This document shows, piece after piece, positions 9,906 through 42,850 of a DNA stretch of 64,000 bases; positions within the stretch are counted from its first letter, which is position 1; every line of letters begins with the position of its first letter. This DNA is from Favolaschia claudopus. Lineage: Eukaryota; Basidiomycota; Agaricomycetes; Agaricales; Mycenaceae. The position numbers were made by a program, and so were the translations under genes. The DNA is taken from assembly GCA_037176885.1 (NCBI GenBank), contig JAWWNJ010000141.1, positions 248,001-312,000 of the forward strand, written 5' to 3'. The notes beneath the pieces were generated by a model. That model did no database searches. It saw only the letters and a program-made list of their open reading frames with translations, and had not been told where the DNA came from.

Positions 9906-10972
9906 ATTCAACTCGTTTTCTTTTCTGTGCCCTGTTTTCTGTGGTCGGACCTTTCGCAGTGCATTCAAGACATAGATTTCAAACACATTCACCCCTTTAC
10001 TCGGCAGAGGACAATTTGTCAGAGCGTGCTAAAACACTGGCGGCTCGGCGTGAGGCTCTTCTGGTCATTGTCAGTGCTTCATGTTGTCAATTACAGGAGA
10101 ATATTGACTGAGATAGTCACCAGAAATGGGTCGTCATTATCAGTATATTAATACAGAGCTCGAACAACAAGTGCAATGCACTTGAGAGCGTGTTCGGAAT
10201 TTTTCTGCATGCCTCCAACACTCCGTACAAAGTCATCGAAACTCTTGCGCACATGGGAATAACCATCTCTGTTGATGCTATTGTAAAGGTCCGTAGCGAC
10301 TTTGCGTTTATGGGCGAAGCATGCACGTTTGAACATCGGATTGGGTTCTCGGGTGCCTGTTGGAAGATTGATGCTGATTCCGGGACCTGGAGCGCCGCTC
10401 TGGCTTGATTTGGAGACTTAGATTCAACGTGAACGAAAGTAGTTGAGTCATGGCCGATTGTCGCCGACCTTCGGTCGACTCCTCGCGGCCCCGGTTTTTA
10501 CGAAAGCAGGTGTGCTTTCGAAGCGCATGATTATTTTTGAACTGCAAAAAATTACCAAGGTCTTGTCGTCGAGTATCGAGCCGTGAAGTCCTCTTGATGT
10601 CTCGCATCGTAGGAGACAGTAGAGACAGTACATATCCAATACATAGATATTTCATGTTATTTTGGTGCGACGAGCCGGCAAAAACAAAAATCCATAGCTC
10701 AAAGCTTGGCGACGCCAAGCTTTTATTTTGCCGCGGCCAGGCTACATGCGACCTTTCAGAATTGCCGCGGACTGCTCAGTTTGAATGGTGGAATCGTCGG
10801 TGCGCTTTGCGGCGACGTCTCACCATCCCTCACACTGTGGAAAATTATGTACAATATTTTGATAATATTGCAAAGAAATCCTGGATTGATTGTCATGGCT
10901 AAATCTCTGGTTTGATTTTCTCAGGATTCTCTATTCATTTCCTTGGACTAAATCGACGTTTAGTGTTGCCGG
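9906..10972. other. No supported gene
   Basis: Short frames only (for example 10308-10718, minus, 136 aa, no motif). A hairpin AAAGCTTGGCG/CGCCAAGCTTT sits at about 10697-10720. Confidence 0.3.
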
Positions 10973-11315
10973 GAGCTGAGTTGGAGCTGAACTCGAGTTG
11001 ATTGCCCATCAGCTCGCTGTCAGCTCGAGTTGACCGGAGCTGGCTCAGAGCTGATACCGGATATGGGAATCTAGTGTCCCAGGGTTCATCTTTCCACCCG
11101 AAGGGCAAAATTTGAGGGGAGAATGGACCAAATTTTTATGTGGAAGGTTTTCCTGAGCTCTCTTCAAGCTCAAACTGCTTTTTATACGTCGAAAACGGCC
11201 AAGAAACGGCCAATACAGAAACTGGGGAAGGAGTGTGATGTCACTCAGTTGCACCACCCGAAATGCCACGTCGTCCGCTTTGGGTGACGAGGGTGGAGTC
11301 GAGGCGAGCTGGCAT
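10973..11315. mobile_element. Half of a small hAT-related element (other half at 24702)
   Basis: It starts TAGTGTTGCCGGGAGCTGAG, close to the right-end repeat of the 3.6 kb hAT elements, and runs into the hAT copy at 11316. Its inner edge (GAGGCGAGCTGGCAT) matches hAT subterminal sequence. Joined to the inverted complement of 24702-24791 it would form one non-autonomous element of about 430 bp with TAGTGTTGCC at both ends. Confidence 0.65.
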
Positions 11316-14300
11316 TAGTGCTGCCGGGAGCTGAGTTGGAGCTGAGCTCGAGGTGATTGCCCATCAGCTCGCTCGAGCTCGGAGTTGGGCCGAGGCAGCT
11401 CGGAGCTGACATCCATAAATGGAAGTTTCCGTCCCACGGTTCTCCGTCTCCTCGTTTTGAGCTGCATTGCACTGTTTTGACCTCGTATGCACCTCTAAAA
11501 TGTGCTACAATTCTCCAATAAGTACAATAAACATATGCACAATAAAAGACTATACAGTTTATGAGTAAATTATGGAACAATACAAAGCACAATGATTATA
11601 TAAGTGAATACAACGCAAAAATCAAACGGGCGAAGCCCAGGAAGATTCTATAAGATCCTCAAGCTCTTGAGTACGCCCTGACGCAATCAACCTTTCTGCT
11701 ACATCAGGGTCAATATCAACAACAGACAGATCTTCCTCAGTTACGACGAAGTCCTCGCAAAATTTGATGTGATCCTGTCGATAAATAAATTTGAGAATCT
11801 GGAGCATTTCCATCATCTCGGGGGAGAGACTGTTGCGTAGGGAGGCATCTGTGTCCTTGCTGGAAGAGAAAACACGCTCGCATGGTACCGCAGAAGCCTG
11901 AACAGGCAATACATCAAGCGCCACGCGAAATAGGTAACGGAACCGATATTGACGAGCCTGCAACATTTTTCAGACCAACATTGTATAAGAACATACTTAA
12001 ACTCACCTCCCAGTAGCGGAGCAAGTCAAGGTCCTCATACTCTGGGTCCGAGCCTCCCAGCAAACCCTCCTTCTCATAGGCGCTCTGCCTCTACTTGCTC
12101 TTCCTCCGAAAGCGGCTGCGGACTTTGAGTACTCGGTGGGGATTCGATGTCGGAAGCAGACAGCTCTTTTACAAGAGCACCAAGCTTCGCAAACCCAGAT
12201 TTCTGGGCACGAGCGGCATGGGATGCAGACGGCGTGTGAACAGCGCGGCGGCTGGCGGTCGAAGCTATGTGCACAGTGCTCGGAGAGTTGTGGTGAGCGC
12301 GGAACTCCCGGCGGTACTCCAGCATCTTGGGAGTTTGTCAGTAGCGCAGTATAATGTGAAAGTTGGGACGCACCGCTGCACGAATCCAGGTTCTGGCTTC
12401 TTCAGCATCTGATGAAGACCAGTTGTCCCTTAGCCACTGGAGTTTTGTCGTCGGATTTAGAACTGAAAGTTAAATATGAGTGATTGAAGCGAATTAAGAG
12501 ACAAACAAGGAAGTAATTACCCATCGCTAGCGCATACATTCGAGTGCGCCGAGACATCCCAAGATATTCTGTGAATTTGTCGACAGCGGCGTTGATACCG
12601 AGACTGATTTTCGGGAGCTCTCGTGCAAGAAGCTTGAGGGCGGCAATGAGCTGCTCGTAGAGTGGAAGCACATAGGACAGGGTAGGTGCTTTCTCCGCAG
12701 AGACTATCTCCTGGACAAGATGCGGAACCTGTAAAAACCGCCGAATGTCGATGAGAACAGTCTTGGTGACTGGATCGAGCCGATCATCCGAAATTTTGAC
12801 TTGCATTGGGTCATCGAGAAATGCCTCAACAGCCTAAACGAAATTCCAAGTCAAATTCAAGGCACGATGTAACGAGTGTACGAGTTTGTTTGACTGGATT
12901 TTTTCTTAGCGCCTCCCAATACCCGACATCCTGCTTCAGTGCCTCGGGAATCGGCGTGCCGTAGTTGTCCGAATCGACACCATCTTGAGGAGCAGGTAAT
13001 TCGGGAAGTGTTGCGAGAGCGGCTTTGACAGCAATATTGACGACATGCGGAAAACAGCTGAACACGGTTAGCCCTCAGACTCGGGAATAAATCATTAAAA
13101 CTCACCGAATTCTGTTCCCTTCCGCATCGAAAGGAATTCCGAGCACGGCGAGCTCTTGCGCAATATACACCATGCATGTGTTATTGTTGCTAGCATTGTC
13201 GCATGTAATCATTCCGAGCTGAGTTATCATCAGCAAGCCGTTCAATTCACAACTCTATGTGACTTACTTTGTGCAAACAACCAATCTCCTTCAAAACTTG
13301 TACAAAGATTTTGGCGATATTTTGACCGGTGTGTCTCCCGTCCAATCGACGAAAAGCAACGAGCCGAGTTTTAAGTACAAGGTGCCCATTGAGCTCGGGA
13401 CAGTCCACCACGTCCAGAGACTAAACAAATATATCAGAATCGCAAGAAACAATGATGAGATAGCACCAACCTGATCATCAACAGCGATCCACTTAACCAA
13501 TCGTTCGTAGAATCCGGGAATAGAAAATTCCTCTCGCTCTCCCGGAGTCTTCGGCGCCTTTGCGAGAATATCCCAATTCTTGAGCCCCTTCAGGATGACC
13601 ATATCCTTCCAAACTTTGCCATGTTCTCCCTCAAGATGATTTCGGATGGTCTTGGTTTGTCCAGGACCATTCTTCCATGCCTTCCATTTCGGAAATCTAA
13701 CGATGGAAGGGTTCAGATAGCGAAAACAAAAACAGAACACACTTGAACACTCACGGACAGAGGCGGCACGACAAATGGGAAAACACCTTTTTATCCGGTC
13801 GATCTTCCTTCATTTCCGTTGGTTCTGGTGCGACGGTTGGCGCAGAAGCGCCGTGAACGCCTCGAACAAAATACCAAACATCTGTTGCATCGTCTCCGGA
13901 TGCCGAAGATTGATTGACCAAAGAGCCGAAGTTGGGGTGAGGGATTGAAGGATGGGAAACTGATTCAGAGGCAGCTGCTGCCGCTGCAACATTTGGGTCA
14001 GACGGACCGACCCCGAACACAGCCGGTTCGGAGGTGGAGTTGGGGTCGATGCGGCGACGGGTACGCGATGTAGCTGCCGAGTTAGCGTTGGGATTCGCTT
14101 TACGTTTCTTCTTGCGCTGTGGCGGAGCGAGGCCGGCATTAATCGTGTTAGTCGCGTCGACAAATGGTGCATGGGTTGCCGCAGAGGAAGGGGGAGGAAT
14201 CACGGTGTTAAATAAGGCGGGGTATGTATTTTGAAAGCCGTAAGTCTGGCCGAAAGTGACGGGAGGTGGTGGAGGATACGGCGATCCGGGGATGAAAGCT

Positions 14301-14900
14301 TGAGGCGGGAGAGGCACGGCATGAACCTGAGAGCCAGGCCAGGAGCCAAAGACGTTGGGCGTGGGGTAGGAATGCGTTGTGAAATTGTTTTGACGCGGGG
14401 GTTGGATGTAGCAAGTGCATGCCTGCGGGTTGCCGCATTGGCAGGACGGCGAGGCCATGGGAGTTCACAAGAGGGAGGGTTGGAATGGAGTATAATTGGG
14501 GCAATATATATAACATTTCGGAGGTATCTATTGCGCGTACCTTGGAACCTGAGTGCGCCAACGCACTATCCCGACGCGCCACCTTTGCGTCATATTTCCA
14601 GCTCTGTGTGGGGCGTTTCGCATTCTCCGTAGCAGCCAGGCGGTGACGTCGACGCCAAGCGAGGTTGAGGTGAATCATAGGAGGATTGGTTCGCGGCAGG
14701 AACGCGCTAACCGGTGAGCGGGAGGACGAGGATTGTGCTTGACGCGCCAGTCACTCAGTGACGCTGTCAAGAGTGTCACAGTGCCTGTTTTGGGGGCCGA
14801 GGCGAGGCGAGCTGGCATCACCTCGAGGTGCCGTTTATGGTAACGTGCCGAGTTGGAGCTGAACTCAGCTCGGAGCTAACTCCAGCTTCCGGCAGCACTA
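11316..14900 (-). mobile_element. hAT DNA transposon, copy 1
   Basis: Element of 3585 bp with ends TAGTGCTGCCGGGAGC (11316) and its counterpart finishing CACTA at 14900. It is nearly identical, in inverted orientation, to 24792-28369; the visible differences are a 7-bp indel near 11605 and a few substitutions. Its flanks are GCTGGCAT (11308-11315) on the left and TCCATAGC (14901-14908) on the right. They do not match each other but match the flanks of copy 2 in swapped fashion. Confidence 0.9.
11622..14458 (-). CDS. hAT transposase, copy 1 (multi-exon, with shared internal stop)
   Basis: A reverse copy of the gene described at 25234-28070. It has the same exons, BED-like finger, catalytic region, C-terminal dimerisation domain (PVQASAVPCERVFSSSKDTD) and the same stop after EEEQVEAERL. 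Residue differences include Leu for Ser near residue 82 of exon 1 and Ser for Phe near the C-terminus. The enzyme would cut and paste the element by an RNase-H-like mechanism in the nucleus. Confidence 0.8.
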
Positions 14901-14959
14901 TCCATAGCAGAGCCCCAGCTCTGACGAGAGGCAGCCTTGCGGCGAGACACAGCTGGCAT
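14901..14959 (-). pseudogene. First codons of a gene split by hAT insertion and inversion
   Basis: On the minus strand an ATG at 14959 opens a frame (MPAVSRRKAASRQSWGS) of 17 codons ending exactly at the GCTATGGA duplication beside hAT copy 1. The same GCTATGGA precedes 28378, where the frame continues (DSIRSGVKRVIGS). The two parts join in frame, so this looks like the severed 5' end of that gene. Upstream on the minus strand lies the end of the large element at 15114, so the promoter may be element-derived or disrupted. Confidence 0.6.
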
Positions 14960-15179
14960 CGCGGGTAGGGCGTCGTGGCAGAATCAGTCTTCTGTCACTG
15001 ATCGGGCTTCAATAATTCAGCGCGTGCAGATTTCGGGTCAAATTTTTGTATATCAAAAGATCGTGTCTATATTAGTGAAGTTACGTAGAAAAATTGAGGG
15101 TGGATGTATGGCTGTAATACTGTTGCATAATTATTTCGACCCTAGATCCGTGTTTTCTCACACCGCCTCACCAATTTTG

Positions 15180-15445
15180 CTTTAAAAAATAGCGCAACCT
15201 GGATAATGAGCCCCAACAAAGCACAACCTCTCATGATGAATATTCACAGCTGCCTGTAGTTGACAAAAACACACAGCCCTTGTCAGAACAGATGCGAAAG
15301 AAAAATGCTCTGCTCAACCTCTGCACGAAAAAAACACGCAACCGGTTAAGAACAAAATCTACCCAGGTTAAAAATATGACACAGGCCGACCAGCAAGCAA
15401 AAGGATGACACACCTCATACTATCAGCAGTCAAAAATGCGCAGGT
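15180..15445. repeat. Left subterminal repeat array of the 4.9 kb element
   Basis: About eight A-tract units follow one another every 30-40 bp: AAAAAATAGCGCAACC, CAAAGCACAACCTC, AAAAACACACAGCCC, AAAAATGCTCTGC, AAAAAAACACGCAACC, AAAAATATGACACAGGCC, AAAGGATGACACACC and AAAAATGCGCAGGT. The opposite end carries the inverted form. Confidence 0.6.
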
Positions 15446-15594
15446 AAGATTGAGTGCAAAAGAGCGCTGGTGTCAGAAATTACGCAAGTCCGCGGTCACG
15501 TTCGAAATTGTTGACACCACGGAATCAGCGCGTGATCCTGAGAGGTTGACATTGATATCAATCTACACCTTCTCTCGTCCCCTCATCTTCGCGA

Positions 15595-16904
15595 ATGCCT
15601 GAGCAGCGGGAGACCGCATCCTCAGGCAAAGTTGCTGAACATGGTATCAAGATTGCCATTGAAGCCAAGGCAGATCTCACTCTTCAAGGCATATACTGTG
15701 ACGCGTCTGTCGCCGAAGCTGAAAGTGAAGATGCGCCAGAGCGCGCTCGCTCTGGTCTTGTCTACGAGCTGGCACCATCCTCAACAATTGAAAGAGGGAG
15801 CGAAAGCCACCAGACTCGGGTCTACCCCGAATTTCTCTACATCCCTGAGGGCCTTGGCAACTACCCCCCTGTCCCATATCCACCTTCGCCCAAATCACTC
15901 GTTCTTTCTGGCGTTGAGGCCACACATCGCGCTCTGATCTTGAACCTGGGTATGCTCCACTTGATGGTATGGCTTATCCCTTTTTCTTCTTCCCAATCCG
16001 CTCTGAGAGTAGCGTCAGGTATCTTACTTGACACACACCTCTGTTCAGTGGTACACCAACGCTCAATGGGAGACCGGTATAATGTCTGTTACAAAGAAGG
16101 TTCGTCTTTGCAGTCCTTTGAGTGCAAACATACTGATTCAGTTTTGCCCAGGTTCGCACCATTCACGTCGGAATGGCTCTAGTCTTCAAAGAATATGTGC
16201 TGGCCTTCGTCACAATCGACTTGCTGTTTCAAGTGAGTTGATAACATTCGAGATTTAGCTTTCTGTTTACGATTCTCGCCCACCTCCCAGCCCATCTGGA
16301 AACGGTCTTTCCACGAATTTATCATTCCTCCCAATATCTACACTGCGCCCACCGACTTCTTGGTTTTAATTGCTAAGTGGATCGCAGACGAGAATTGGTT
16401 GAAGGGCAGACGTTATATTCTCGCTTGTGACGCCATCCGGGAAGCTAGCAAGATCTGGTACGGGATCGGTGTTTACACCGTCATGGAGCTCTTCTTTCTT
16501 GCCGGTTCGTCATTGTGTCTCAATCTGCTCCATCACCGAAATTTATTTTATTCCTGCTCCAGGACTATCACCCTTCATCACTGCATGCGAACTCTTCTCT
16601 AGCCCTTCTCGTACAGCTCGGCTTCTAGCCGCATACTACACTTATATTCACGTCGGAGAGACGGGTCTGTGGTGAGTTCGGAGTTCGGTTTCCTCTTGTT
16701 GCCTCTTCTCATGGCTTATGGATGTACAGGCGACTCCTGAGCCCTTGTATTCACAACGGTGTTCTTGCTCCCACCACCGAGCAGCGACTGCGATACGCGG
16801 ATTGGCTGTATGTGTGGGCCAAGGACCGTGTCTGGATGTCCACTCGCATGAGCCAACTTCTTGATTCATACAATAGAGCCTTTGCGGTAGCTGCTGGCGG
16901 CTAA
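15595..16904 (+). CDS. Unknown six-exon gene carried by the 4.9 kb element (333 aa)
   Basis: Six exons with canonical GT-AG introns and matching phases give a continuous 1002-nt frame: 15595-15966, 16049-16099, 16152-16232, 16291-16504, 16563-16671 and 16730-16904, ATG to TAA. Introns are 52-82 bp. The protein starts MPEQRETASSGKVAEHGIKI, is acidic and Pro-rich in the first third, then becomes Trp/aromatic-rich and mainly hydrophobic-helical (VFKEYVLAFVTIDLLFQ, IWYGIGVYTVMELFFLAG). I see no catalytic motif, signal peptide or clear transmembrane array, and I do not recognise the family. Its preservation inside an element whose transposase looks truncated is notable. It could be an accessory element protein or a captured host gene. 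Confidence 0.65.
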
Positions 16905-16984
16905 TTTTTCTCACGACCCACTAAGCACCGGGTCTCAAGTAAGCCACCCTGAGCAGCTGTTATGAAGGACATCTCAAGGTGGCT

Positions 16985-18093
16985 AACTTGGCCCAGTAGC
17001 ATCAGCAGTCGTTGTGTGGCACGAACCGCCAGTTCGTGTGGCGGCTCACCGCAAAGGCTCTAATGTCCGTTTGCCTCCTCCTCATTCCTCGTTCGGTTCA
17101 AAATTGACTATTGTCCTAGAATACTCTGGGAAGATTTGCTACCGCAAGCGAGGTCACCTGTCGCAAGGCAGTCACCGATGTTTTCGAACCGAGCCTGGTG
17201 GAGCCCGCCCTCCAGGCTCATCCGGCGTGGGGCAATCTTATCTTCGGTGAGACGGCATGGTTGTCCCTTTCTGGGGATGCTCCCATGGCCAGCGATCCCA
17301 TCATCGAGTTTTTCTGAGAGCAAGGTGAGTACGTCGGATGCATCTCAGAGCACCTACCTCTCAATCAAGGCTTACTATCCAACCCAACCCATCTACGCCC
17401 CGCTGAGTTTTACAACCCAGTTTTCCTTCCGTCTTCCGAGCTCAAGACCGCGCGCCGAAATACCTTTGCCTATCATGGCAAGAAAGAGATGTGGACGGTT
17501 GTTCGCAATTTCCCAAACACCTTACACTGGAGCAGTAAATCGACGCATTTTCTTCTTGCTTCGGGCTATCAATCCTCTAACATGGTTTGTAGTCATTCAC
17601 TCCAAGGTTCCTCGCATGGACGAGTTTGTGGGGAAAGCACGGGAATCTATGCTGTTCAAGTCTATTGTTAAAAACACTCAAGGGGTTTCGATTGGTCCTT
17701 TAGAATAGGGCACATAATCAGCGTTGGAAATTCTTCTTTGTCAGTCATTGATTTTTCCTGCCGATTTGAACACGAAACTGAACTCACTTTACGGTTTCTT
17801 CCAGTCTTGCTGTATGTAAGGGGGAGCCCTCTATATCGCAGCACTTTGGAGAACGCCTATTGAGGGGACTCAATCGGATTTCCACCAAGCTAGAGGCACC
17901 AGGTTCACACAAGCGCAAACGAACGGAGAAGGAAAACAAGGCTTTGGCGAAGAAGCTGGCAACTTTGAAGCCTGGTTATGCTAGGGCTGTGGCAGCGAAG
18001 GAGGCAACGGAAGAGGATGATACAGCTGAAGAACCAAAGCCAAAAAAGTGTCGCATGAGCGCCGACCAAAAGCTAGCACTCCAGAATATCTAG
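16985..18093 (+). pseudogene. Unknown coding remnants downstream in the element
   Basis: One frame reads AAHRKGSN, then after a plausible intron (17067-17118) NTLGRFATASEVTCRKAVTD to a stop near 17318. A second block (about 17370-17585) reads RPAEFYNPVFLPSSELKTAR and then GKKEMWTVVRNFPNTLHWSS; continuing it to 17708 needs a frame change. A third block (17860-18093) is a basic C-terminus (SHKRKRTEKENKALAKK ... PKPKKCRMSADQKLALQNI) with nuclear-localisation-like clusters. These may be exons of one second gene, partly decayed. Function unknown. Confidence 0.35.
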
Positions 18094-18423
18094 TTATCTA
18101 TCCCATGTATTGTATATTACTTGTTAATTAACATTTTTCTGCCGTAATATTGGTTCTCTATTCCTCCTGTTTTGTTCTCGCTAAGGAGGTAGAGCAATCT
18201 GAATCCTACACCTGCCAATCTTTCGAACCAGCACTTGCGTGTGACTTGAGTGACAATGTGACACTGATGTGGCAGGAGTGAGCCTCAAAAAGCAGGTAGG
18301 GTCCATTGACTAAGGATTTTGAAAGAGTGCATATCAATTATATACAGCATATGATCCCCCCAAGGTACCCAGAACCTACACAAACACTCTGTGGATTATT
18401 TGGTGCCATAAGTGGTGTCTTTG

Positions 18424-19498
18424 TCACAGAGCGTCACGACGTGTGACTGTGTGACTCACGGTGATACACCAACGCACACGGCCGCCCATCCCGTCATTTG
18501 TAAGATAACCTAGATGGGCAGAAGTTTGTACTCCTAGAAAACAGAAGGTTGAACATAGTTTGACACTGTTCCAGGTGCCAAGTATGTCATGGTGGCTAGT
18601 TAGGTAATTCAAAATGTGTGCAGTGGCCGCCTCAAAAAGTTGAGCTACCGTGGCCATTCGCTTGTTGGAGCAACAAGCCGAATATATGATGAGACGTGAA
18701 TGGCCGTCAATGCAGCCATGCACATAGAAACCCCACGGACGAAGTTTTTCGTTTCCGTCCTGGTGCCACAGCGCGTTCGATCCTCGAACTTTATAAACAC
18801 GACGCTTGATAATTCCCGCCCACCTGTACATTGTAAAATCAGTTGATAGCAGAGCGAAATAAGACATACCTAACGAGCACCCCAATTTCGTCAACCCTTC
18901 TCAAGCTATCTTGAACGCGCAGGCGAGGAAGATGAATGCCTCGAGCCTCGAGATGGCCGGAAACAATGACAGAGCCAACGAATGGGTGCGCCAGTGATAT
19001 TTCAGCAACAACCTCATCTAGCGCGTCATCAGTGATTTGTGTGAACTCACGGCGAGCGGTGGGGATGCCAGCACGCTCAAACTGGCGCCAGAGTGTTGTC
19101 CTGTCGACACCGAAGGCGGCGGAAATGTCTGTCCAAGTATTGCCTAGATCGTGTAGAAGCCGAGCGCGGGAAAGATCAAGAGAATAGCTAGGGCGTCCAG
19201 GGCGCCCAGTCCGAAGTCTAGGATGAGAGGTATTGGCTGGAGGAGGAGGTGGATTGATTATGAAGTCTTCGAGAGGAGCAAGCAGATTGTCGACGTCTGC
19301 CAGGAGGCTTTCTCGAACCTCTTCTGTCACGGAGAAGTCTTCGAGAACGACAACAATCTGGCGCACGGCCCCAAGTTGATGAGACCTACGTTCAACCGCG
19401 GGAAGGTCTGCGTTAGGGAGAGAGTCGATAATGAACTGAGCCTGTACACAGATGTTATGGGCTTCCAGTAAGAACGTGTGGACTGGGTCGTTGCTCAT
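18424..19498 (-). pseudogene. Integrase-core (rve-like) transposase, C-terminally truncated
   Basis: Exon 1 (19498-18870) encodes a long N-terminal region and a helix-turn-helix-like segment (GRPSYSLDLSRARLLHDLGN, then TWTDISAAFGVDRTTLWRQF). After a 46-bp intron (18824-18869) exon 2 reads RRVYKVRGSNALWHQDGNEK, then WGFYVHGCIDGHSRLIIYSA. This matches the N-terminal half of an integrase-type DDE core found in many Agaricomycete proteins (xALWHxDGxxKL, then the GxIDGxSR aspartate). The following text is frame-broken and no second Asp or Glu of the triad is recognisable before 18424. It lies at the right end of the 4.9 kb element and points inward, as a transposase gene would. Confidence 0.6.
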
Positions 19499-19639
19499 GG
19501 AGAGAGGAAGAAAGAGACAAGACAGGAGAGATCGATACGATCAGATCTGTCGAAGCCTCGGACCGGTATTACGTACATTACGTACTTTACAAGTTCAACT
19601 CTTCTTCGAGTACAGAGCTGCGCATTAAATAAAAATCTC

Positions 19640-19960
19640 ACACTACCTGTGCATTTTTTCATTCCTCACACCACCTGTGCATTTTTTTTGTTCCTCAACT
19701 ACCTGTGCGCTTTTTTCTTTCCACCCTGCAGGCTGTGTGTTTTTCCCGTTAATCAAAGGGTGGGGTATTTTTGCATAGTCACCTTAGGCTGCGTCTTTTC
19801 CGACGAGCAGCTGAGTGGTGCAGTTTTTTGAGATGGTACTCAAGCTGTGTCAAATCTTCGCCCAGTGTTTCAATTTGGGTAACTAACTAGCTGTGACATT
19901 TCGGAGCGCAATCGAGAGGTATGTCGTTTTTGGAAAAGGTGGTGTGTTTTCTGACAGAGG
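19640..19960. repeat. Right subterminal repeat array of the 4.9 kb element
   Basis: ACYACCTGTGCATTTTTT occurs three times from about 19641 to 19712, followed by looser copies (GGCTGTGTGTTTTTC, GGCTGCGTCTTTTC, GGTGCAGTTTTTT, GGTGTGTTTT). Reverse-complemented they are AAAAAATGCACAGGTRGT, the same type as the left array. Confidence 0.6.
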
Positions 19961-20096
19961 TTGCGCATATAATACGTACAATTGACCTGTAATTATGCAA
20001 CAGTATTACCCCCAAATGGATGGCCCCGATTGGATGTAAAGACGCGTTTGATCGTGATTTTGCTGTAATGATTCCAATTATGGTCTGTCACACTGG

Positions 20097-20137
20097 ATCA
20101 CGTGGGGTAGGTTGCTGATGAATGAGATCTACCTTAC
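20097..20137 (+). repeat. 41-bp exact dispersed repeat, copy 1
   Basis: It begins ATCACGTGGGGTAGGTTGCT and ends GATCTACCTTAC. The identical 41 bases occur at 29143-29183; flanks are not conserved. Confidence 0.6.
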
Positions 20138-20320
20138 ATTGATATAAGTACTGTGACTGTGACATCAATCCAGTCCTTTCGGCTTCTTTGCCGTGTTGAA
20201 ACCGGTCATTTTCTTTTCTGATAGCTGGCAATTGGAGGACTTGATGGCCTGGAAGGCCGCCTGATCAATTTCAGCTAGCCGCGTTTTCGTTTTCGATTTT
20301 CGTTCATAGCGGCATTTTGC

Positions 20321-20362
20321 CCTATACCGATGAATGGGGAAGGGAAGCAAGCTTCCCCATAA
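20321..20362 (+). repeat. Dispersed repeat with hairpin, copy 2
   Basis: Same block as 6598-6637, here with GGGGAAGGGAAGCAAGCTTCCCC. Confidence 0.55.
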
Positions 20363-20917
20363 CCTGTACCTAAAGGTAGCGGGAATGCCGTAATGTTCGG
20401 ATTTGGAAATTTTTCCCATCAGCCTTTCGCCTCGTACCAGACTCACTCAACAGCTGGGGGCTGCCTTTTGCGGGCAGAGTAGGTGAGAATGACTTTCTCA
20501 ACATGGCTCCGTGGTCACAATAATTTATTTGGGCTCCGGGACGTGCAGACTCGAAGAACTGCAGTTGGCGGCCAACCCTCCAAATCTCGAACTCTTTCAA
20601 TTTTGGAGCTTTTCCCTCGACTCAAAGGCGAAATAGAGCTTATTAGCAGCCGCCAGAAACCCACTTTCCTAATCAAAGAAAATAATTCGCTAAACTATTT
20701 TCGCTTAGAGTCGGTGCTCCACTTTTTGAGTCTCGGATATACAGTTGGATATATGGGGAGAACGAGGTCGCGTTGTCTGGCTTTTCGATAAACTGTTCTA
20801 CGCGATCGATGACGCACAGATCCACCCCCCAAGACCATTGCGTATTCATGTGGGGCGGGGCCACTGGAGCCATGATACGCGATGAGGAGCATTGGGCGAG
20901 GTCATCGTTGAGAGTAA

Positions 20918-21019
20918 AGAGCAGAGTGAGCGCTGAGCTGGCAAGCCGTGCCATGTCGGAGTTAGCGTAAAGAGCAGAATGAGCGCTGAGCTGGCAAGCC
21001 GCGCTATGTCGGAGTTAGC
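20918..21019. repeat. Tandem duplication of about 52 bp
   Basis: AAAGAGCAGARTGAGCGCTG is followed by AGCTGGCAAGCCGYGC and ATGTCGGAGTTAGC, twice in a row with few differences. The surrounding 20140-21420 otherwise has no recognisable gene. Confidence 0.6.
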
Positions 21020-21422
21020 CGAGACACGCCAACTTAGGACGTGGGCAAACGGCCCCGCCGCGTCCATCAATTTCTCGCTTGATTAAAGAGGGTGAATTAC
21101 AGGTTCAATCTAAATTTCGGGGCTCTGAAATATATTTTCAGGTCGCTGCTAATAAGCTCCAATCAGCTTCAGTCTAATTCTTTCTGAGTTTCTAAATCGA
21201 ATTAAATACTAGTTTAAATTCCCTATCCCAAATTTCAGAGAAAAACAGCGAGGAAAGCCCTCTAAAACAAGGCAAAGAAAGTCAGGCATAGTTCAGGACA
21301 TCATTGGCCGAATCTCTTTCATTTTCGAGTCAACAACTGGTTAGAATATGCTGATAACAAGGCAAAGGGAGCCTTATATACTCTTCTTGGTTCTCCACTA
21401 TTTCATAATAGAGCATTTTGGC

Positions 21423-21566
21423 AAACGGTGAAAATCAAATCTCAGTTCGAAAAACTAAGCGAGTTTGGTGAAAAACTACAGTGGGCTGCGCACTGTTTTG
21501 CAGCTCCACAACCAAAATTTGGTTAGCGGGAACTGAAGAAAAAAATCATTTTTCACCGTTTAGAAA
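21423..21566. mobile_element. Small inverted-repeat element
   Basis: AAACGGTGAAAA near 21424 is mirrored by TTTTCACCGTTT near 21553. It spans about 140 bp with no coding content. The frame at 21627-21965 (minus) has no motif. Confidence 0.4.
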
Positions 21567-21974
21567 CCTATGAAAGGTTCAAAGTTTTCAAATTTCTATT
21601 CGACAGGAGCGGAGGCAGGTGCGCGCTCAATATATATAGGAACCATTCTTCATTTCAGACTCAGTGATACTGATGTAAACGAAGTTTAGATGCGCCAGAG
21701 GACAAGGCATCTTCCTTTTCGGGGAATCGAACATTTGTTCCAGAAAATGATTAAATTCCGTGTACTTCTTGGATCGGGACTGCACCCGTAAATTAAAATG
21801 TAACCAAGTAGATAGATAATGACGATTCCAAGCTTGATTTATCTCAGTCCAAGCCCAGACCTTCTCGTTCTTCTTGTTCATCCTCTTCATCTGAACACCA
21901 CGCAAACCAGTCTGTCCCGCGGAGGGTAAATTATCAACTCTGCCCTGCATATTACTCTCAATCAAGGCCGGGAA

Positions 21975-22578
21975 TACTGTACTATTTCGACCGTAGATTC
22001 AATGGGTTTGAGATGTGACGCTTTATCTTCACTTTTGCCATCATTCATCAGTGATTGAATTGCCTTTTTAGGGAGATTTTTCGTGTTTTGCCGATCTCAA
22101 AAAGCGCTGTACATGCATCAGGAAAAACTGAAACTGCGCCAAAGAGCGCCAGAGACCGCCATAGCACCCCATAGACGTCAAAGACGTCATAGCCGAGGGC
22201 CGAGCTACATAGAAACCTGGGTGCACCGTGGTCAGATTCATAGACACCCAAAGTTGGTCAAAGTAGCCATAGTCATAGCTCTTATAGTGCTCAAAGTCGT
22301 CAAAGTGGCTCAAAGTACGCACAATAAATATGTGAAACAAATCATATTTTGCGACAAGAATAAGCACTATATGTATATAACCGGCAGTCCGACACCAGCC
22401 AAGGAAGAGTCGATATTGCGGCAGATAGGAAGAGCGGGGGAAGGAGGCAAAAGGGCTGGGAACGGATTGGGAATTTTATTTTCGTAACGTGTCAGTGACA
22501 CGTTACGAAAATAAAATAGATTCAATTCAAGTCCCTCTGTAACCTGTGACTTGAATCTACGGTCGAAATAGTACAGTA
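21975..22578. mobile_element. MITE with TACTGTACT ends, 28-bp perfect TIRs
   Basis: TACTGTACTATTTCGACCGT (21975-21994) continues 8 bases further and is perfectly mirrored at 22551-22578. The terminal TA on each side may be the target duplication. The interior is non-coding and holds a 45-bp near-perfect palindrome (22473-22517). Confidence 0.8.
22473..22517. repeat. Palindrome with 22-bp arms and 1-nt spacer
   Basis: Arm ATTTTATTTTCGTAACGTGT plus CA, then G, then the exact reverse complement. It lies near the right end of the MITE at 21975-22578. Confidence 0.8.
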
Positions 22579-22940
22579 ATGTGATTACATGAGGGGTTGA
22601 TTACGAGTGTAACGGAGCAGTTCATTGTTGAAACATGAATTCGGAAGACGCATGTTGATGTAGCGCGGCTGTAACGCGGCGGTGGCTGTGTTGACGCGGC
22701 ATTGAGGCGCACCGGCGCGGTACTGACGCGTAGTGACGCGGCACATAGTGCATTCTCACCGAGCGATTTTTAGGTCCTCCAGCATCCTAGAAACTCCCCT
22801 TCGCTGATGATAGTCTCACCAAGTCAGACTCTACAAGATTTATGATAGTCGATAAATCTATTATATAGACTTTGCTGAGTGAAATTACTAGTAATCAACA
22901 GTACACGAAAGGCTGCTATATCACCCCAAATCCCTCAAGT

Positions 22941-23188
22941 TACTGTACTGATCCGACCGGTCGTTCACCGGGTGTCACCCGTCACCCAAATTGTTCACTG
23001 GACAAGTTGCTCACAACACGTCAATCACATCAAAATTACCATATATGGTAGGCCGGCCTTGCTCGGCACATGCCGGCCGGAGATTTTTGCCCTAAAAAAC
23101 TCGGTGTCACTCGTCACCACCTTCAAAAAGTTCAGTTCACGACGGGCCGTCACACATAACGTGAACAACCGGTCGGATTAGTACAGTA
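22941..23188. mobile_element. MITE with TACTGTACT ends, second member
   Basis: TACTGTACTGATCCGACCGG (22941) and its inverted partner ending CAGTA at 23188 match over 28 bp with two mismatches. It is 248 bp. It shares the first nine bases with the element at 21975. Confidence 0.75.
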
Positions 23189-23508
23189 TCTTGTTATGCA
23201 CCTCGGTTGAATGTCTGAGCATGGTCGATACAGGCCACAATGAGCCTCATGCGGCATCTTCTCGTGGTAGTGTGAGTGCTCAAGATCTGGGTCTCCTGTG
23301 TCCAACAATTATTACTATCATAAGAAAAGACTCCCCGCGACATGTAGAAATGCCGCGTCGATGCTGTGCCGGTCGGCGTCAAAGCCACGTCACTGCGCGT
23401 CAATTTCTCCGGACCGCGGGTCGAAGTCCATGTAGCTGCATATTTTCCAAACGAAAACAAATAGAAACTGTATGTAGATATGTATACGGACAAGAGAGTA
23501 ACGTATGT

Positions 23509-23928
23509 TCATTGCTTGCGGCGTGACCTTTCTGTGAAAATGGCGTCGTAAACGTCCACAGCGCGGGGACGCTTTTCGGGCTCGTCCAGTACGCATCTGG
23601 CAGCGAGAGTTCGCAACCAGTCCGGGGCCGCCTGGTTCCACACCAGGACGGGGCAAACGTATTCCTGCTGACGCTCGAACTCCCCGACTTCCATGCATAC
23701 GGCCCATATTACGAGACCGAGGGCGAAGACGTCAGCGGCGGTGGTGCGGGGCCCGGGCTGCGCAGCCTCCGGGGGATTCCACTTGACCGTAGTTCCGAAG
23801 GGCGCGTAGTCGATGCCTCGACAATGCCCGTCCTCGCAAACTACGATGTTGGAGGTTTTGAGATCGTCCCAGGTCATGTTCTGTTTGTGCAGCCACGCCA
23901 CGGTGGCGGTCTCTGGGATTACCGACCG
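23509..23928 (-). pseudogene. Protein kinase C-lobe fragment
   Basis: The frame reads VAWLHKQNMTWDDLKTSNIV, then GIDYAPFGTT, NPPEAAQPG, DVFALGLVIWAVCMEVGEFE and RCVLDEPEKRPRAVDVYDAI, ending at 23509. These match kinase subdomains VIb to XI: catalytic loop with DLK and a conserved Asn, DFG replaced by IDY, APE-like PPE, the structural Asp and the C-terminal Arg. The N-lobe is missing: the frame is cut at 23928-23931 exactly where a TA-flanked MITE end begins. The loop and DFG changes suggest a divergent Agaricomycete kinase-like family or a pseudokinase. Confidence 0.65.
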
Positions 23929-23931
23929 CTA

Positions 23932-23980
23932 CAGTGGCGGCAAAATCTGATGTCACCCCCAAAAAAGGAAATTCTCAAAA
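23932..23980 (+). mobile_element. MITE end (GCGGCAAAATC family) truncating the kinase
   Basis: TA at 23930-23931, then CAGTGGCGGCAAAATCTGAT and GTCACCCC, as at 9858. The other end was not found before 24514; that stretch has no gene. Confidence 0.55.
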
Positions 23981-24513
23981 GGCCGGGGACAGACGCTCCA
24001 CCTCTGTCGACCCACATTCTGAGGAGGCAGAAATCTAGCTTGAGTCTCTCTGATGCTGCCTTCACAAGAGTGCGAAATAAAATCCGTTGTTTCCATCGAA
24101 TTACACGCGCCGTGAAGTTTGCTTACATGATACTACATAATAGAGGGTTTGCGAAGAGCCATTGGAGCCATTGAATGGCTACCGATTTCCGCATTAGGAG
24201 AGTTTGATGGGCCAAACTTTCATGTAGAAGTGGAATGAAGTTACTCGATCTTACACTTGTTTAGCCATTAGCCATTCAATATCTGCATGGCAAACAGGTT
24301 AATATGACTTTGGTCCTTGGATTAGGCCTCTTCGAGGCGGGGTGCTGAACCTTTGACGGCCACAATTTTTGAAATTTGAAAAAACTTCTAGTCCTAGCCT
24401 AGCTTTTTCCTCTCAAAGTGAATTGATTGGATGCTTGATTACTGATTAAATTTGCGGTTGCCGGGAGAAAGCCCAATGGCTGCCGGTCGATGTATGATGA
24501 GCAAAGTCGATAG

Positions 24514-24703
24514 TAGGGGCGCTCAATTCTTAGCTCGTCGGCTCGTCCTCGTCCCAGAAATTATTTAATTGCATGATGAGCTGATGAGCTGCTGATCCCA
24601 CTCCGCATTTCTCTCCACTTCCCATCAAATTTTGATCCCCTCATCAAAAAATCGATATTTTACGGACGAGACGAGCTGACGAGCTAAGAATTGAGCGCCC
24701 CTA
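24514..24703. mobile_element. 190-bp MITE with long inverted repeats
   Basis: TAGGGGCGCTCAATTCTTAG (24514) is mirrored by CTAAGAATTGAGCGCCCCTA (ending 24703), extending to about 40 bp with small differences. It is inserted at the tip of the hAT-related fragment that starts at 24702. Confidence 0.75.
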
Positions 24704-24791
24704 GTGTTGCCGGAAGCTGGAGCTAGCTCCGAGCTGAGTTCAACTCCAACTCGACCCCTTCCCAAAAGCGGCACCTCGAGGTGATGCCAGC
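24702..24791. mobile_element. Other half of the small hAT-related element
   Basis: TAGTGTTGCCGGAAGCTGGA resembles the left end of hAT copy 2, and the fragment runs to GTGATGCCAGC where copy 2 begins. Its missing remainder is at 10973-11315, inverted. Bases 24503-24510 (AAAGTCGA) match 7 of 8 with AACGTCGA, the complement of the bases outside 10973, a likely old duplication. Confidence 0.6.
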
Positions 24792-27700
24792 TAGTGCTGC
24801 CGGAAGCTGGAGTTAGCTCCGAGCTGAGTTCAGCTCCAACTCGGCACGTTACCATAAACGGCACCTCGAGGTGATGCCAGCTCGCCTCGCCTCGGCCCCC
24901 AAAACAGGCACTGTGACACTCTTGACAGCGTCACTGAGTGACTGGCGCGTCAAGCACAATCCTCGTCCTCCCGCTCACCGGTTAGCGCGTTCCTGCCGCG
25001 AACCAATCCTCCTATGATTCACCTCAACCTCGCTTGGCGTCGACGTCACCGCCTGGCTGCTACGGAGAATGCGAAACGCCCCACACAGAGCTGGAAATAT
25101 GACGCAAAGGTGGCGCGTCGGGATAGTGCGTTGGCGCACTCAGGTTCCAAGGTACGCGCAATAGATACCTCCGAAATGTTATATATATTGCCCCAATTAT
25201 ACTCCATTCCAACCCTCCCTCTTGTGAACTCCCATGGCCTCGCCGTCCTGCCAATGCGGCAACCCGCAGGCATGCACTTGCTACATCCAACCCCCGCGTC
25301 AAAACAATTTCACAACGCATTCCTACCCCACGCCCAACGTCTTTGGCTCCTGGCCTGGCTCTCAGGTTCATGCCGTGCCTCTCCCGCCTCAAGCTTTCAT
25401 CCCCGGATCGCCGTATCCTCCACCACCTCCCGTCACTTTCGGCCAGACTTACGGCTTTCAAAATACATACCCCGCCTCATTTAACACCGTGATTCCTCCC
25501 CCTTCCTCTGCGGCAACCCATGCACCATTTGTCGACGCGACTAACACGATTAATGCCGGCCTCGCTCCGCCACAGCGCAAGAAGAAACGTAAAGCGAATC
25601 CCAACGCTAACTCGGCAGCTACATCGCGTACCCGTCGCCGCATCGACCCCAACTCCACCTCCGAACCGGCTGTGTTCGGGGTCGGTCCGTCTGACCCAAA
25701 TGTTGCAGCGGCAGCAGCTGCCTCTGAATCAGTTTCCCATCCTTCAATCCCTCACCCCAACTTCGGCTCTTTGGTCAATCAATCTTCGGCATCCGGAGAC
25801 GATGCAACAGATGTTTGGTATTTTGTTCGAGGCGTTCACGGCGCTTCTGCGCCAACCGTCGCACCAGAACCAACGGAAATGAAGGAAGATCGACCGGATA
25901 AAAAGGTGTTTTCCCATTTGTCGTGCCGCCTCTGTCCGTGAGTGTTCAAGTGTGTTCTGTTTTTGTTTTCGCTATCTGAACCCTTCCATCGTTAGATTTC
26001 CGAAATGGAAGGCATGGAAGAATGGTCCTGGACAAACCAAGACCATCCGAAATCATCTTGAGGGAGAACATGGCAAAGTTTGGAAGGATATGGTCATCCT
26101 GAAGGGGCTCAAGAATTGGGATATTCTCGCAAAGGCGCCGAAGACTCCGGGAGAGCGAGAGGAATTTTCTATTCCCGGATTCTACGAACGATTGGTTAAG
26201 TGGATCGCTGTTGATGATCAGGTTGGTGCTATCTCATCATTGTTTCTTGCGATTCTGATATATTTGTTTAGTCTCTGGACGTGGTGGACTGTCCCGAGCT
26301 CAATGGGCACCTTGTACTTAAAACTCGGCTCGTTGCTTTTCGTCGATTGGACGGGAGACACACCGGTCAAAATATCGCCAAAATCTTTGTACAAGTTTTG
26401 AAGGAGATTGGTTGTTTGCACAAAGTAAGTCACATAGAGTTGTGAATTGAACGGCTTGCTGATGATAACTCAGCTCGGAATGATTACATGCGACAATGCT
26501 AGCAACAATAACACATGCATGGTGTATATTGCGCAAGAGCTCGCCGTGCTCGGAATTCCTTTCGATGCGGAAGGGAACAGAATTCGGTGAGTTTTAATGA
26601 TTTATTCCCGAGTCTGAGGGCTAACCGTGTTCAGCTGTTTTCCGCATGTCGTCAATATTGCTGTCAAAGCCGCTCTCGCAACACTTCCCGAATTACCTGC
26701 TCCTCAAGATGGTGTCGATTCGGACAACTACGGCACGCCGATTCCCGAGGCACTGAAGCAGGATGTCGGGTATTGGGAGGCGCTAAGAAAAAATCCAGTC
26801 AAACAAACTCGTACACTCGTTACATCGTGCCTTGAATTTGACTTGGAATTTCGTTTAGGCTGTTGAGGCATTTCTCGATGACCCAATGCAAGTCAAAATT
26901 TCGGATGATCGGCTCGATCCAGTCACCAAGACTGTTCTCATCGACATTCGGCGGTTTTTACAGGTTCCGCATCTTGTCCAGGAGATAGTCTCTGCGGAGA
27001 AAGCACCTACCCTGTCCTATGTGCTTCCACTCTACGAGCAGCTCATTGCCGCCCTCAAGCTTCTTGCACGAGAGCTCCCGAAAATCAGTCTCGGTATCAA
27101 CGCCGCTGTCGACAAATTCACAGAATATCTTGGGATGTCTCGGCGCACTCGAATGTATGCGCTAGCGATGGGTAATTACTTCCTTGTTTGTCTCTTAATT
27201 CGCTTCAATCACTCATATTTAACTTTCAGTTCTAAATCCGACGACAAAACTCCAGTGGCTAAGGGACAACTGGTCTTCATCAGATGCTGAAGAAGCCAGA
27301 ACCTGGATTCGTGCAGCGGTGCGTCCCAACTTTCACATTATACTGCGCTACTGACAAACTCCCAAGATGCTGGAGTACCGCCGGGAGTTCCGCGCTCACC
27401 ACAACTCTCCGAGCACTGTGCACATAGCTTCGACCGCCAGCCGCCGCGCTGTTCACACGCCGTCTGCATCCCATGCCGCTCGTGCCCAGAAATCTGGGTT
27501 TGCGAAGCTTGGTGCTCTTGTAAAAGAGCTGTCTGCTTCCGACATCGAATCCCCACCGAGTACTCAAAGTCCGCAGCCGCTTTCGGAGGAAGAGCAAGTA
27601 GAGGCAGAGCGCCTATGAGAAGGAGGGTTTGCTGGGAGGCTCGGACCCAGAGTATGAGGACCTTGACTTGCTCCGCTACTGGGAGGTGAGTTTAAGTATG

Positions 27701-28369
27701 TTCTTATACAATGTTGGTCTGAAAAATGTTGCAGGCTCGTCAATATCGGTTCCGTTACCTATTTCGCGTGGCGCTTGATGTATTGCCTGTTCAGGCTTCT
27801 GCGGTACCATGCGAGCGTGTTTTCTCTTCCAGCAAGGACACAGATGCCTCCCTACGCAACAGTCTCTCCCCCGAGATGATGGAAATGCTCCAGATTCTCA
27901 AATTTATTTATCGACAGGATCACATCAAATTTTGCGAGGACTTCGTCGTAACTGAGGAAGATCTGTCTGTTGTTGATATTGACCCTGATGTAGCAGAAAG
28001 GTTGATTGCGTCAGGGCGTACTCAAGAGCTTGAGGATCTTATAGAATTTTCCTGGGCTTCGCCCGTTTGAGTTGTATTCACTTATATAATCATTGTGCTT
28101 TGTATTGTTCCATAATTTACTCATAAACTGTATAGTCTTTTATTGTGCATATGTTTATTGTACTTATTGGAGAATTGTAGCACATTTTAGAGGTGCATAC
28201 GAGGTCAAAACAGTGCAATGCAGCTCAAAACGAGGAGACGGGGAACCGTGGGACGGAAACTTCCATTTATGGATGTCAGCTCCGAGCTGCCTCGGCCCAA
28301 CTCCGAGCTCGAGCGAGCTGATGGGCAATCACCTCGAGCTCAGCTCCAACTCAGCTCCCGGCAGCACTA
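24792..28369 (+). mobile_element. hAT DNA transposon, copy 2
   Basis: Element of 3578 bp with ends TAGTGCTGCCGGAAGCTGGA and CAGCTCCCGGCAGCACTA. Left flank ATGCCAGC (24784-24791), right flank GCTATGGA (28370-28377). Inverted, near-identical twin of 11316-14900. Confidence 0.9.
25234..28070 (+). CDS. hAT transposase, copy 2
   Basis: Exon 1 (25234-25937) is a Pro/Ala-rich N-terminus ending in CRLC; after an intron HLEGEH completes a BED-type zinc finger (C-x2-C ... H-x4-H) for binding DNA ends. Later exons carry RRLDGRHTGQNIA (first catalytic Asp region), LGMITCDNASNNNTCM (second), CFPHVVNIAVKAAL (the C-x2-H of hAT enzymes), and NPTTKLQWLRDNW. The C-terminus ARQYRFRYLFRVALDVLPVQ, then CERVFSSSKD, is the hAT dimerisation domain. 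Splice sites are mostly canonical. After EEEQVEAERL a TGA (27616) breaks the frame before the dimerisation exon, and I found no intron that repairs it. Copy 1 has the same stop, so it predates their duplication. Confidence 0.8.
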
Positions 28370-28941
28370 GCTATGGATTCTATCAGGTCTGGGGTCAAGC
28401 GTGTGATTGGCAGTTTGTCACCAAAGAAGAAAAGGAAAACGGAAAAAGAGAATGTGCGTCTGTGCTTCTTGTTCTCATGCTGTGAATAATCTTGCAAAGG
28501 ACACGCTGCCTCCGTCGACCCCGGGCCCATCGCTGTCTGGCAGCGATGTTTTTCTATCATCTGAACCGGCCGTCTTTACACCCGACTTCTCGTAGTTCCC
28601 CATCGAAGTCATCAACAGTTGGCAGAATATGGCAAGAATGGACCCCTCGTTTAATCAGTCGATTCTCACCGTCTCGTCAATCCATGCCAAATCACGAAAT
28701 CTTTGACGACAACGCGTCAATTCTGGCTGCGCGATCCCCGTTCCCGCCGCAAATGCTGACCAATGACTCTGTCTCCGAGCTCAGCTTCCAACTCTATCCG
28801 CACTCCGTCGATTCCGCCTCTCTAAAATCAGCCGACTCTGCATCAATAAAATTCCCAACTCCGCAGCCTCCGTTGCCCACAGATGCAGAGTTGGCTGAAC
28901 GTGCACGGGCTCGTGAGGCAGCTGCCAAATCTGCTGACTAA
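28370..28941 (+). pseudogene. Main part of the split gene, Ser/Pro-rich basic protein
   Basis: From the GCTATGGA duplication the frame reads MDSIRSGVKRVIGSLSPKKK with a nuclear-localisation-like PKKKRK. A probable intron (28453 to about 28498) follows, then DTLPPSTPGPSLSGSDVFLS. Another frame continues to 28941 (SRFSPSRQSMPNHEIFDDNA, ending ELAERARAREAAAKSAD), so a frame change or further intron is needed near 28590. Its first 17 codons are at 14959-14909 on the minus strand. No domain is recognised; basic Ser/Pro-rich N-termini of this kind occur in some fungal transposon-encoded proteins, but that link is weak. Confidence 0.5.
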
Positions 28942-29751
28942 TCGGCGGTAGTTTCTCCGTTGTTTTTGCTTCAATAATTCGCACACTGGGCAGAAAAATC
29001 TACCAAGCTGGATTATAATACTTTTACCGATTTAGAACATAGTTACGTAGAAGGTATACTCAATATGTTGTCCAAGTCTACGTGAATTGAGCATCAGTCT
29101 GGCTTGGACAAGGATAGGTAACATCAGTAACGCGTTACATCAATCACGTGGGGTAGGTTGCTGATGAATGAGATCTACCTTACGTGGTCTATAGTGTCAT
29201 CGGCCGCTTGCCGAACGCGTCCGAGTGGCTGTACCAGGTCACGCACACGGCCCTTATTGGGTAGCCATAAGTCCGGACGCCGAGTTACATGCTCCCAAAG
29301 TCGTTGGAAAGCTATTGGCTGCAACTTATGTCCTTCTCCTAGCGTGCCTCCATGAGATTTCAGTACAGAAAATGCAATATAAAATTTGGTTTTTTGTTCT
29401 TGGGCGATTTGAGACATCAATGATGGCATCAGTGATGGGACCTATTTGGTGGTGTTTATGCGATGTGCACCATAGCCGAGCATCGGAACGGGACCAACGT
29501 AACTCGATCGATCAAGCATGTACGTGACCGTGACCCTTGGCGTCATAGAGCCGACCTTGACTTGTTCCGTGCCGACTGCTTCATTTTCGTTTCTGAACCT
29601 GCTGCCGACGGGCACCACCGGCCATCTATCGGCTATTCTATATATAGTCGTTTTCGTTTTCGTTTCTAGTATATACTCCGGCTGCCGTCCGTCCGTCCGT
29701 CCCGTCCGTTTCGACGGCTGCCGGACAACCTTTTGCGCCTAAACCACATGA
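28942..29751. other. No supported gene; repeats
   Basis: Contains the second 41-bp repeat (29143-29183). A minus-strand frame at 29429-29175 (GEGHKLQPIAFQRLWEHVTR) looks protein-like but is unrecognised. CCGTCCGTCCGTCCCGTCCG near 29685 recurs near 31023. Confidence 0.35.
29143..29183 (+). repeat. 41-bp exact dispersed repeat, copy 2
   Basis: Identical to 20097-20137. Confidence 0.6.
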
Positions 29752-42678: not shown

Positions 42679-42850
42679 CCTAGGCTCGATACCAGCCGTT
42701 ATAGTGGTAATGACGAGCAAGCAGGTATTACTGTTATAGTAAGTAATACCTGCTTGCTATAGTAAGTAATACCTGCTTGCTCGTCATTACTATAACAGTA
42801 ATACCTGCTTGCTCGTCATTACCACTATAACGGCTGGTATCGAGCCTAGG
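42679..42850. mobile_element. Foldback element with 63-bp perfect arms
   Basis: CCTAGGCTCGATACCAGCCG (42679) begins a 63-bp arm that is exactly mirrored to 42850. The 46-bp loop region itself repeats AGTAATACCTGCTTGCT twice. CCTAGG at each end is a palindrome and might include a target duplication. Non-coding. Confidence 0.85.

Follow-up and report, generated by a model that had tools for sequence, protein, structure and literature searches.

In the genome of the mushroom Favolaschia claudopus, two facing copies of a transposon raise the question of how each of them came to lie between two 8-bp flanks that do not match, and what this says about the DNA enclosed by them. The copies, which belong to the hAT superfamily as judged by their sequence, lie in a stretch of 64,000 bp (the window), which is part of contig JAWWNJ010000141.1 (C141; positions 248,001 to 312,000 of the forward strand) in an assembly of 264.6 Mb and 460 contigs (GCA_037176885.1). 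An inversion of the segment between them is strongly supported and with high likelihood real, because two target-site duplications are exchanged between the copies, a third duplication straddles the flip, the same structure is found on a second contig (C301), and unbroken relatives of the target sites exist. The inversion was probably made by a homologous crossover between the facing copies, a reading that has to be weighed against other routes to the same structure.

As assembled, neither copy has a matching pair of flanks, and each holds one half of the other's duplication (Table 1). The left flanks of the two copies are reverse complements of each other, as are their right flanks; when the segment is flipped back, copy 1 is bordered by GCTGGCAT at either end and copy 2 by GCTATGGA. 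The first-pass annotation had already described these four flanks, their exchange and the recovery of both pairs by flipping, and it was correct in all of this. The chance of one 8-mer match is about 1.5e-5 by base composition and 3.05e-5 when sampled on 2 million randomly chosen position pairs of the window, and for both pairs together it is about 2e-10 by composition. The exchanged duplications show that flanks have been re-paired via the two hAT copies, which face each other, one per end of the inverted segment, as in the transposon-generated inversions of the Galileo type.

The assignment of the element to hAT is based on a domain, the 8-bp duplications and the terminal repeats. The hAT C-terminal dimerisation domain (PF05699) was found in the translation of 27735-28070, the last coding piece of copy 2 (E 5.1e-07; 29.8 bits with a cut-off of 21.4; profile positions 30-81 of 84), while the upstream 670 transposase residues matched no Pfam model at E 0.01. 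Copy 1 has the termini TAGTGCTGCCGGGAGC and ...CGGCAGCACTA, and near-identical copies are present elsewhere in the assembly; the short terminal inverted repeats of the element read TAGTGCTGCCGG(G/A)AGCTG at both ends. A protein search with the transposase, in which 7998 candidates were scored, gave 28 hits, 27 of them with a source name. The top match, 50% identical across 68% of the query, is a putative AC transposase [Mycena venus]; Mycena accounts for 8 of the 27, and the named sources are mushroom-forming fungi and relatives. The two copies in the window are distinguished by 3 substitutions and a single 7-bp indel, the latter being a deletion in copy 2 that is absent from all 14 other copies in an alignment of 15.

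C301 was compared over the first 50,000 of its 78,088 bases. Its order agrees with that of window positions 1-41213, with which it aligns in blocks that are mostly 99.4-99.9% identical (97.4% in the first block), and past 41213 the compared part has no collinear match, only short repeat hits. Both C301 hAT copies have the same four flanks as the copies in the window, likewise exchanged, so that the duplications are exchanged on both contigs. The segment between the copies measures 5,575 bp in C301 as compared to 9,891 bp in the window, mainly due to three insertions, two of them in the window (4.9 kb and 0.5 kb) and one in C301 (1.1 kb), each of which ends in terminal inverted repeats or short duplications. 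Three of the four open reading frames of at least 150 amino acids in the 4.9-kb insertion were scanned and had no Pfam match. C301 is apparently the other haplotype of the strain; it has also been considered as a segmental duplication, which was set aside in favour of the haplotype reading, itself inferred, because most blocks are 99.4-99.9% identical and insertions are found on both sides. The same order and the exchanged flanks on C301 make a one-off assembly error unlikely, and misassembly, which the first-pass annotation had named as a possible refutation, is thereby made improbable. As another refutation it had named relatives with the present order and the same flanks. C301 literally shows this order and these flanks, yet the inversion stands, because C301 looks like a sister haplotype whose flanks are exchanged as well.

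Further differences between the two contigs were seen. The 1.1-kb insertion (C301:21283-22375, L011) terminates in CACTGTGAA/TTCACAGTG, is accompanied by a 3-bp duplication (AAG), and is presumably CACTA-like by its motif. An element of about 400 bp with the ends TGGGGACTGG/CCAGTCCCCA is found at differing places, at 7951-8351 in the window and at 8476-8879 in C301 (L009). It measures 404 bp, is 95% identical between the contigs and has a short duplication of its own (CTCCCTG in C301), and its differing places, as far as the alignment tells, point to recent movement.

The target sites carry the argument further. Copy 1 hit a hAT-type miniature inverted-repeat transposable element (MITE), the two parts of which now lie apart (Table 1). 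The first-pass annotation had already described a split small element, and the split is real, although the left part begins at 10961 and not at 10973. The MITE was found at no fewer than 40 places in the assembly, the window and C301 included (the best 40 of 539 candidates having been scored), and in all seven of the places elsewhere that were read it is 437 bp long and uninterrupted; six of these seven have a perfect 8-bp duplication, and two of the seven (L039 and L040) have the same one and may be allelic. In the window locus, the MITE's own duplication, which was absent from the first-pass annotation, straddles the flip, with 8 of 8 matching bases in C301 and 7 of 8 in the window, if the 5 bases between its right half and GGGGCGC, which read TAGTA in the window and TACTA in C301, are assigned to the later insertion. 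The second small element at the end of the MITE has approximate limits, and its target duplication is either TA or TAG, which is uncertain.

Copy 2 hit another repeat. The coding frame that was said to be cut at GCTATGGA is a genuine open frame, but it lies within this repeat and is no unique host gene, as both flanks are found together at 15 other places. The flank that is now right of copy 1 gave 23 matches, or 19 places after subtraction of the window, C301 and two short extra matches, and at no fewer than 15 of these 19 the flank that is now right of copy 2 follows at a distance of exactly 8 bp. This number is a lower bound, since the best 40 of 1976 candidates were scored, and some of the places may be allelic pairs. 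In all three places that were read (C253, C139 and C190), a single GCTATGGA joins both flanks. The arrangement that preceded insertion and flip can thus be observed directly, though in paralogues and not at this locus, and a single target sequence for each of the two breakpoints is visible only in paralogous repeats.

Table 1. Features of the inverted locus (positions in the window)
Feature	Position	Strand	Details
Half of the copy 1 target duplication	11308-11315	plus	GCTGGCAT; partner 24784-24791 after the flip
Other half of the copy 1 duplication	24784-24791	minus	ATGCCAGC on plus
Half of the copy 2 target duplication	14901-14908	minus	TCCATAGC on plus; partner 28370-28377
Other half of the copy 2 duplication	28370-28377	plus	GCTATGGA
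Inverted segment	14901-24791		9,891 bp; carries insertions absent from C301
hAT copy 1	11316-14900	minus	3585 bp; transposase frame on the minus strand; forms an inverted repeat with copy 2
hAT copy 2	24792-28369	plus	3578 bp; opposite orientation to copy 1
Left part of the hAT-type MITE hit by copy 1	10961-11315	plus	High-copy
Right part of the same MITE	24702-24791	minus	At the far end of the inverted segment
MITE left target duplication	10953-10960	plus	TCGACGTT in the window; TCGACTTT in C301
MITE right target duplication	24503-24510	minus	Reverse complement TCGACTTT; set apart from the MITE by a later insertion
Second small element	24514-24701		Has terminal inverted repeats (GGGGCGCTCAATTCTTAGCTCGTC); lies directly at the MITE's end
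Insertion of about 4.9 kb, absent from C301	15107-20016		20-bp terminal inverted repeats; direct TGGATG at both ends

How usual unpaired flanks are in this family can be seen from the 25 hAT copies in the assembly of which both ends were read, a set that is confined to such copies and beside which at least four more apparently have both ends. The 8-bp duplications match perfectly in 13 of the 25, which amount to 11 loci, as two pairs share a duplication and may be allelic; the two copies in the window regain theirs after the flip. Of the 12 unmatched copies, the window, C301 and C221 have two each, C99 has three, and C336, C56 (608497) and C86 (1020357) have one each; with allelic copies pooled they represent four loci, the window locus included. 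C56:608497 and C86:1020357 share both flanks and are probably allelic. These two and C336:23232 are near-full-length copies with unpaired flanks, each near a piece of a related small element. At C116:712466-718266, hAT pieces abut in opposite orientation, and at C281:1634-3912 they do so terminus to terminus; both arrangements are possibly products of aberrant transposition.

A second locus with facing copies is found on C221 (111369-114958, plus strand, and 124772-128184, minus strand). C99 aligns with C221 in reverse over parts of this region, and its copy at 540860-544445 corresponds to the first C221 copy. The left flank of this C99 copy, CCTTCAAC, equals the right flank of the second C221 copy; at the first C221 copy the same flank has 5 extra bases, so that CTGTCAAC stands beside the element. 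At C281:26487-26515, both flanks are contiguous with a single 8-mer, exact over 29 bases; this match was the sole one at up to 3 mismatches, a backwards control gave none, and identity between C281 and the flanks is 98% for one of them (about 740 bases) and 98.2% for the other (282 bases). On the other side of the locus, GGTTTGCG and GAGCGGGC do not pair. A partner of GGTTTGCG, searched for as the 8-mer with the pattern of the hAT left end, had no exact match in the assembly, and with 1-2 mismatches there were 3 places as compared to 2 for the backwards control, from which nothing is concluded. The remaining C99 copies likewise have unpaired flanks, and this together with the unpaired other side means that more than one event is needed at the second locus. 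GAGCGGGC is also shared by C99:561492 and C221:124772. About 191 bases beside the former match the repeat beside the latter at 96%, and because this repeat is common, the shared flank may reflect two insertions into one repeat family and not one rearranged site. On one of its sides the second locus appears to be arranged like the window, and it is a lead, not a solved case.

As to the mechanism, the first-pass annotation regarded an inversion by recombination as proven. The term is justified for the way in which flanks are re-paired in the assembly but not for the mechanism, as the insertion of a hybrid element leaves the same duplications, so that the exchanged duplications alone cannot tell the two apart. 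According to the reading that is favoured here, a hAT element would have inserted into the MITE and generated its own 8-bp duplication (copy 1), and a sister copy would have landed close by, facing the other way, in a different repeat, again with its own 8-bp duplication (copy 2). A crossover between the facing copies would then have flipped the segment and so brought together half-sites of different origin, a left one and a right one. The flip would have preceded the separation of the strain's two haplotypes, each of which would have gained its own insertions within the flipped segment afterwards, and the two copies may have gone on exchanging sequence by gene conversion. The crossover is preferred to the insertion of a hybrid element because pairing of the facing copies is independently suggested and because no special transposition step is needed.

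The suggestion of pairing comes from shared variants. Among the 15 aligned copies, G at element position 1962 and A at 2877 occur only in both C301 copies (one copy has a gap at 1962), and there are 3 substitutions between the copies of one contig and 5 between alleles. At the second locus, where one more copy was added to the comparison, both C221 copies share A at 2195 and a 5-bp insertion after 3086, and both C99 copies share G at 2197, although one copy of each pair is allelic by its flanks to one of the other pair. Gene conversion between neighbouring inverted copies is suggested as the simplest reading of these shared variants, although recent local jumps would also explain those at the second locus.

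The closest competitor, rather unlikely but the strongest of the rivals, is a transposition of a hybrid element between sister chromatids or homologues, in which one end from each of two sister copies at one site act together, insert at a second site and thereby create copy 2 and the inversion in a single step. Ectopic recombination is described as resulting in chimeric copies and hybrid insertion in identical ones, with otherwise strikingly similar outcomes (PMC2775673), and the copies in the window are indeed nearly identical and share two variants that are absent from the 11 aligned copies from elsewhere. The Ac/Ds elements, which are hAT elements too, invert DNA by alternative transposition (PMC8225341). 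On the other hand, close similarity is equally expected if copy 2 is a local jump of copy 1, or after conversion, and the Ac/Ds transposition between sister chromatids yields inverted duplications and composite insertions according to the same source, whereas a repeat search of the window with a minimum of 40 bases found no duplication of the outer flanks.

Several observations weigh against the crossover and the conversion that goes with it, or limit how far they can be taken. No chimerism is visible in the copies in the alignment; conversion would erase it, if the copies once were chimeric. At positions 2120 and 3232, the four copies of the window locus (window and C301) have states that no other aligned copy shows, all four also share their state at 455, and such sharing is predicted by an origin from a single copy through insertion of a hybrid element. 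The signal of conversion is small, and at both loci a similar pattern could arise from the polishing of near-identical repeats. Window copy 2 and C301 copy 1 differ by only 4 substitutions, and position 329, which has the common state in window copy 1 and not in the other three, does not fit a simple history. As both contigs carry the present order, there is no non-inverted allele at hand, and none was found in the assembly; the ancestral order is deduced from the duplications and the paralogues. Finally, there are 8 unmatched copies besides the four of the window locus, and for most of them no partner was found.

A crossover in the genome would be superfluous if the assembler had placed the segment the wrong way round across the 3.6-kb repeats, no inversion having ever taken place. 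Such a misassembly would yield the same exchanged flanks, and the exchange at the second locus is open to the same kind of error. It is nevertheless quite improbable, as the same orientation is found on C301 with different insertions inside the segment, and as the 13 copies with intact duplications argue that exchange is not general in this assembly. Repeated crossover with recurrent flipping, for which the variants common to facing copies might speak as signs of pairing and recombination, is the least probable of all, since both haplotypes would have to be sampled in the same phase, as both contigs are, and since gene conversion needs no crossover.

The closest known systems are the Galileo inversions 2j, 2q7 and 2z3 of Drosophila buzzatii (PMC2775673). 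The window locus resembles 2z3 in the opposite cut-and-paste copies at the breakpoints, the exchanged duplications and the later insertions near the breakpoints. It differs in the element, as Galileo belongs to the P superfamily and makes 7-bp duplications, while the element here is a hAT with 8 bp, in the kilobase scale of the segment, and in that the copies are chimeric there and not visibly so here; also, non-inverted chromosomes have been sequenced in Drosophila, whereas here only paralogues show the original order. With maize Ac/Ds, the locus shares the superfamily, the inversions and the 8-bp duplications at the junctions (PMC8225341). In maize, the progenitors are known and the inversions are attributed to transposition with the ends of two elements, whereas here only the finished structure is at hand, which fits a crossover as well as the insertion of a hybrid element. 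A DNA-transposon-mediated rearrangement in a fungus, reported in 2002 as cited in PMC8225341, involved a different element. No direct report of a hAT inversion with exchanged duplications in a fungus was found in the open-licence literature, and a first report is not claimed.

Apart from these elements, the window contains an identical 41-bp direct repeat at 20097-20137 and 29143-29183, which recurs at many places in the assembly, and a perfect 64-bp inverted repeat with a 44-bp spacer at 42679-42850.

The locus is a clear further case of a known phenomenon, the transposon-generated inversion of the Galileo type. For the family as a whole, it can tentatively be proposed that these hAT elements repeatedly remodel the genome, in that facing clusters give rise to inversions, by crossover or by transposition of hybrid elements, neighbouring copies of one haplotype homogenise each other, and exchanged duplications record successive rearrangements that differ between haplotypes. 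Exchanged target duplications are a base-level record of the order before and after a rearrangement, and a comparison of haplotypes or strains at the four unpaired loci could measure the rate and the mechanism of inversion in a mushroom, and could also separate crossover from the transposition of hybrid elements.

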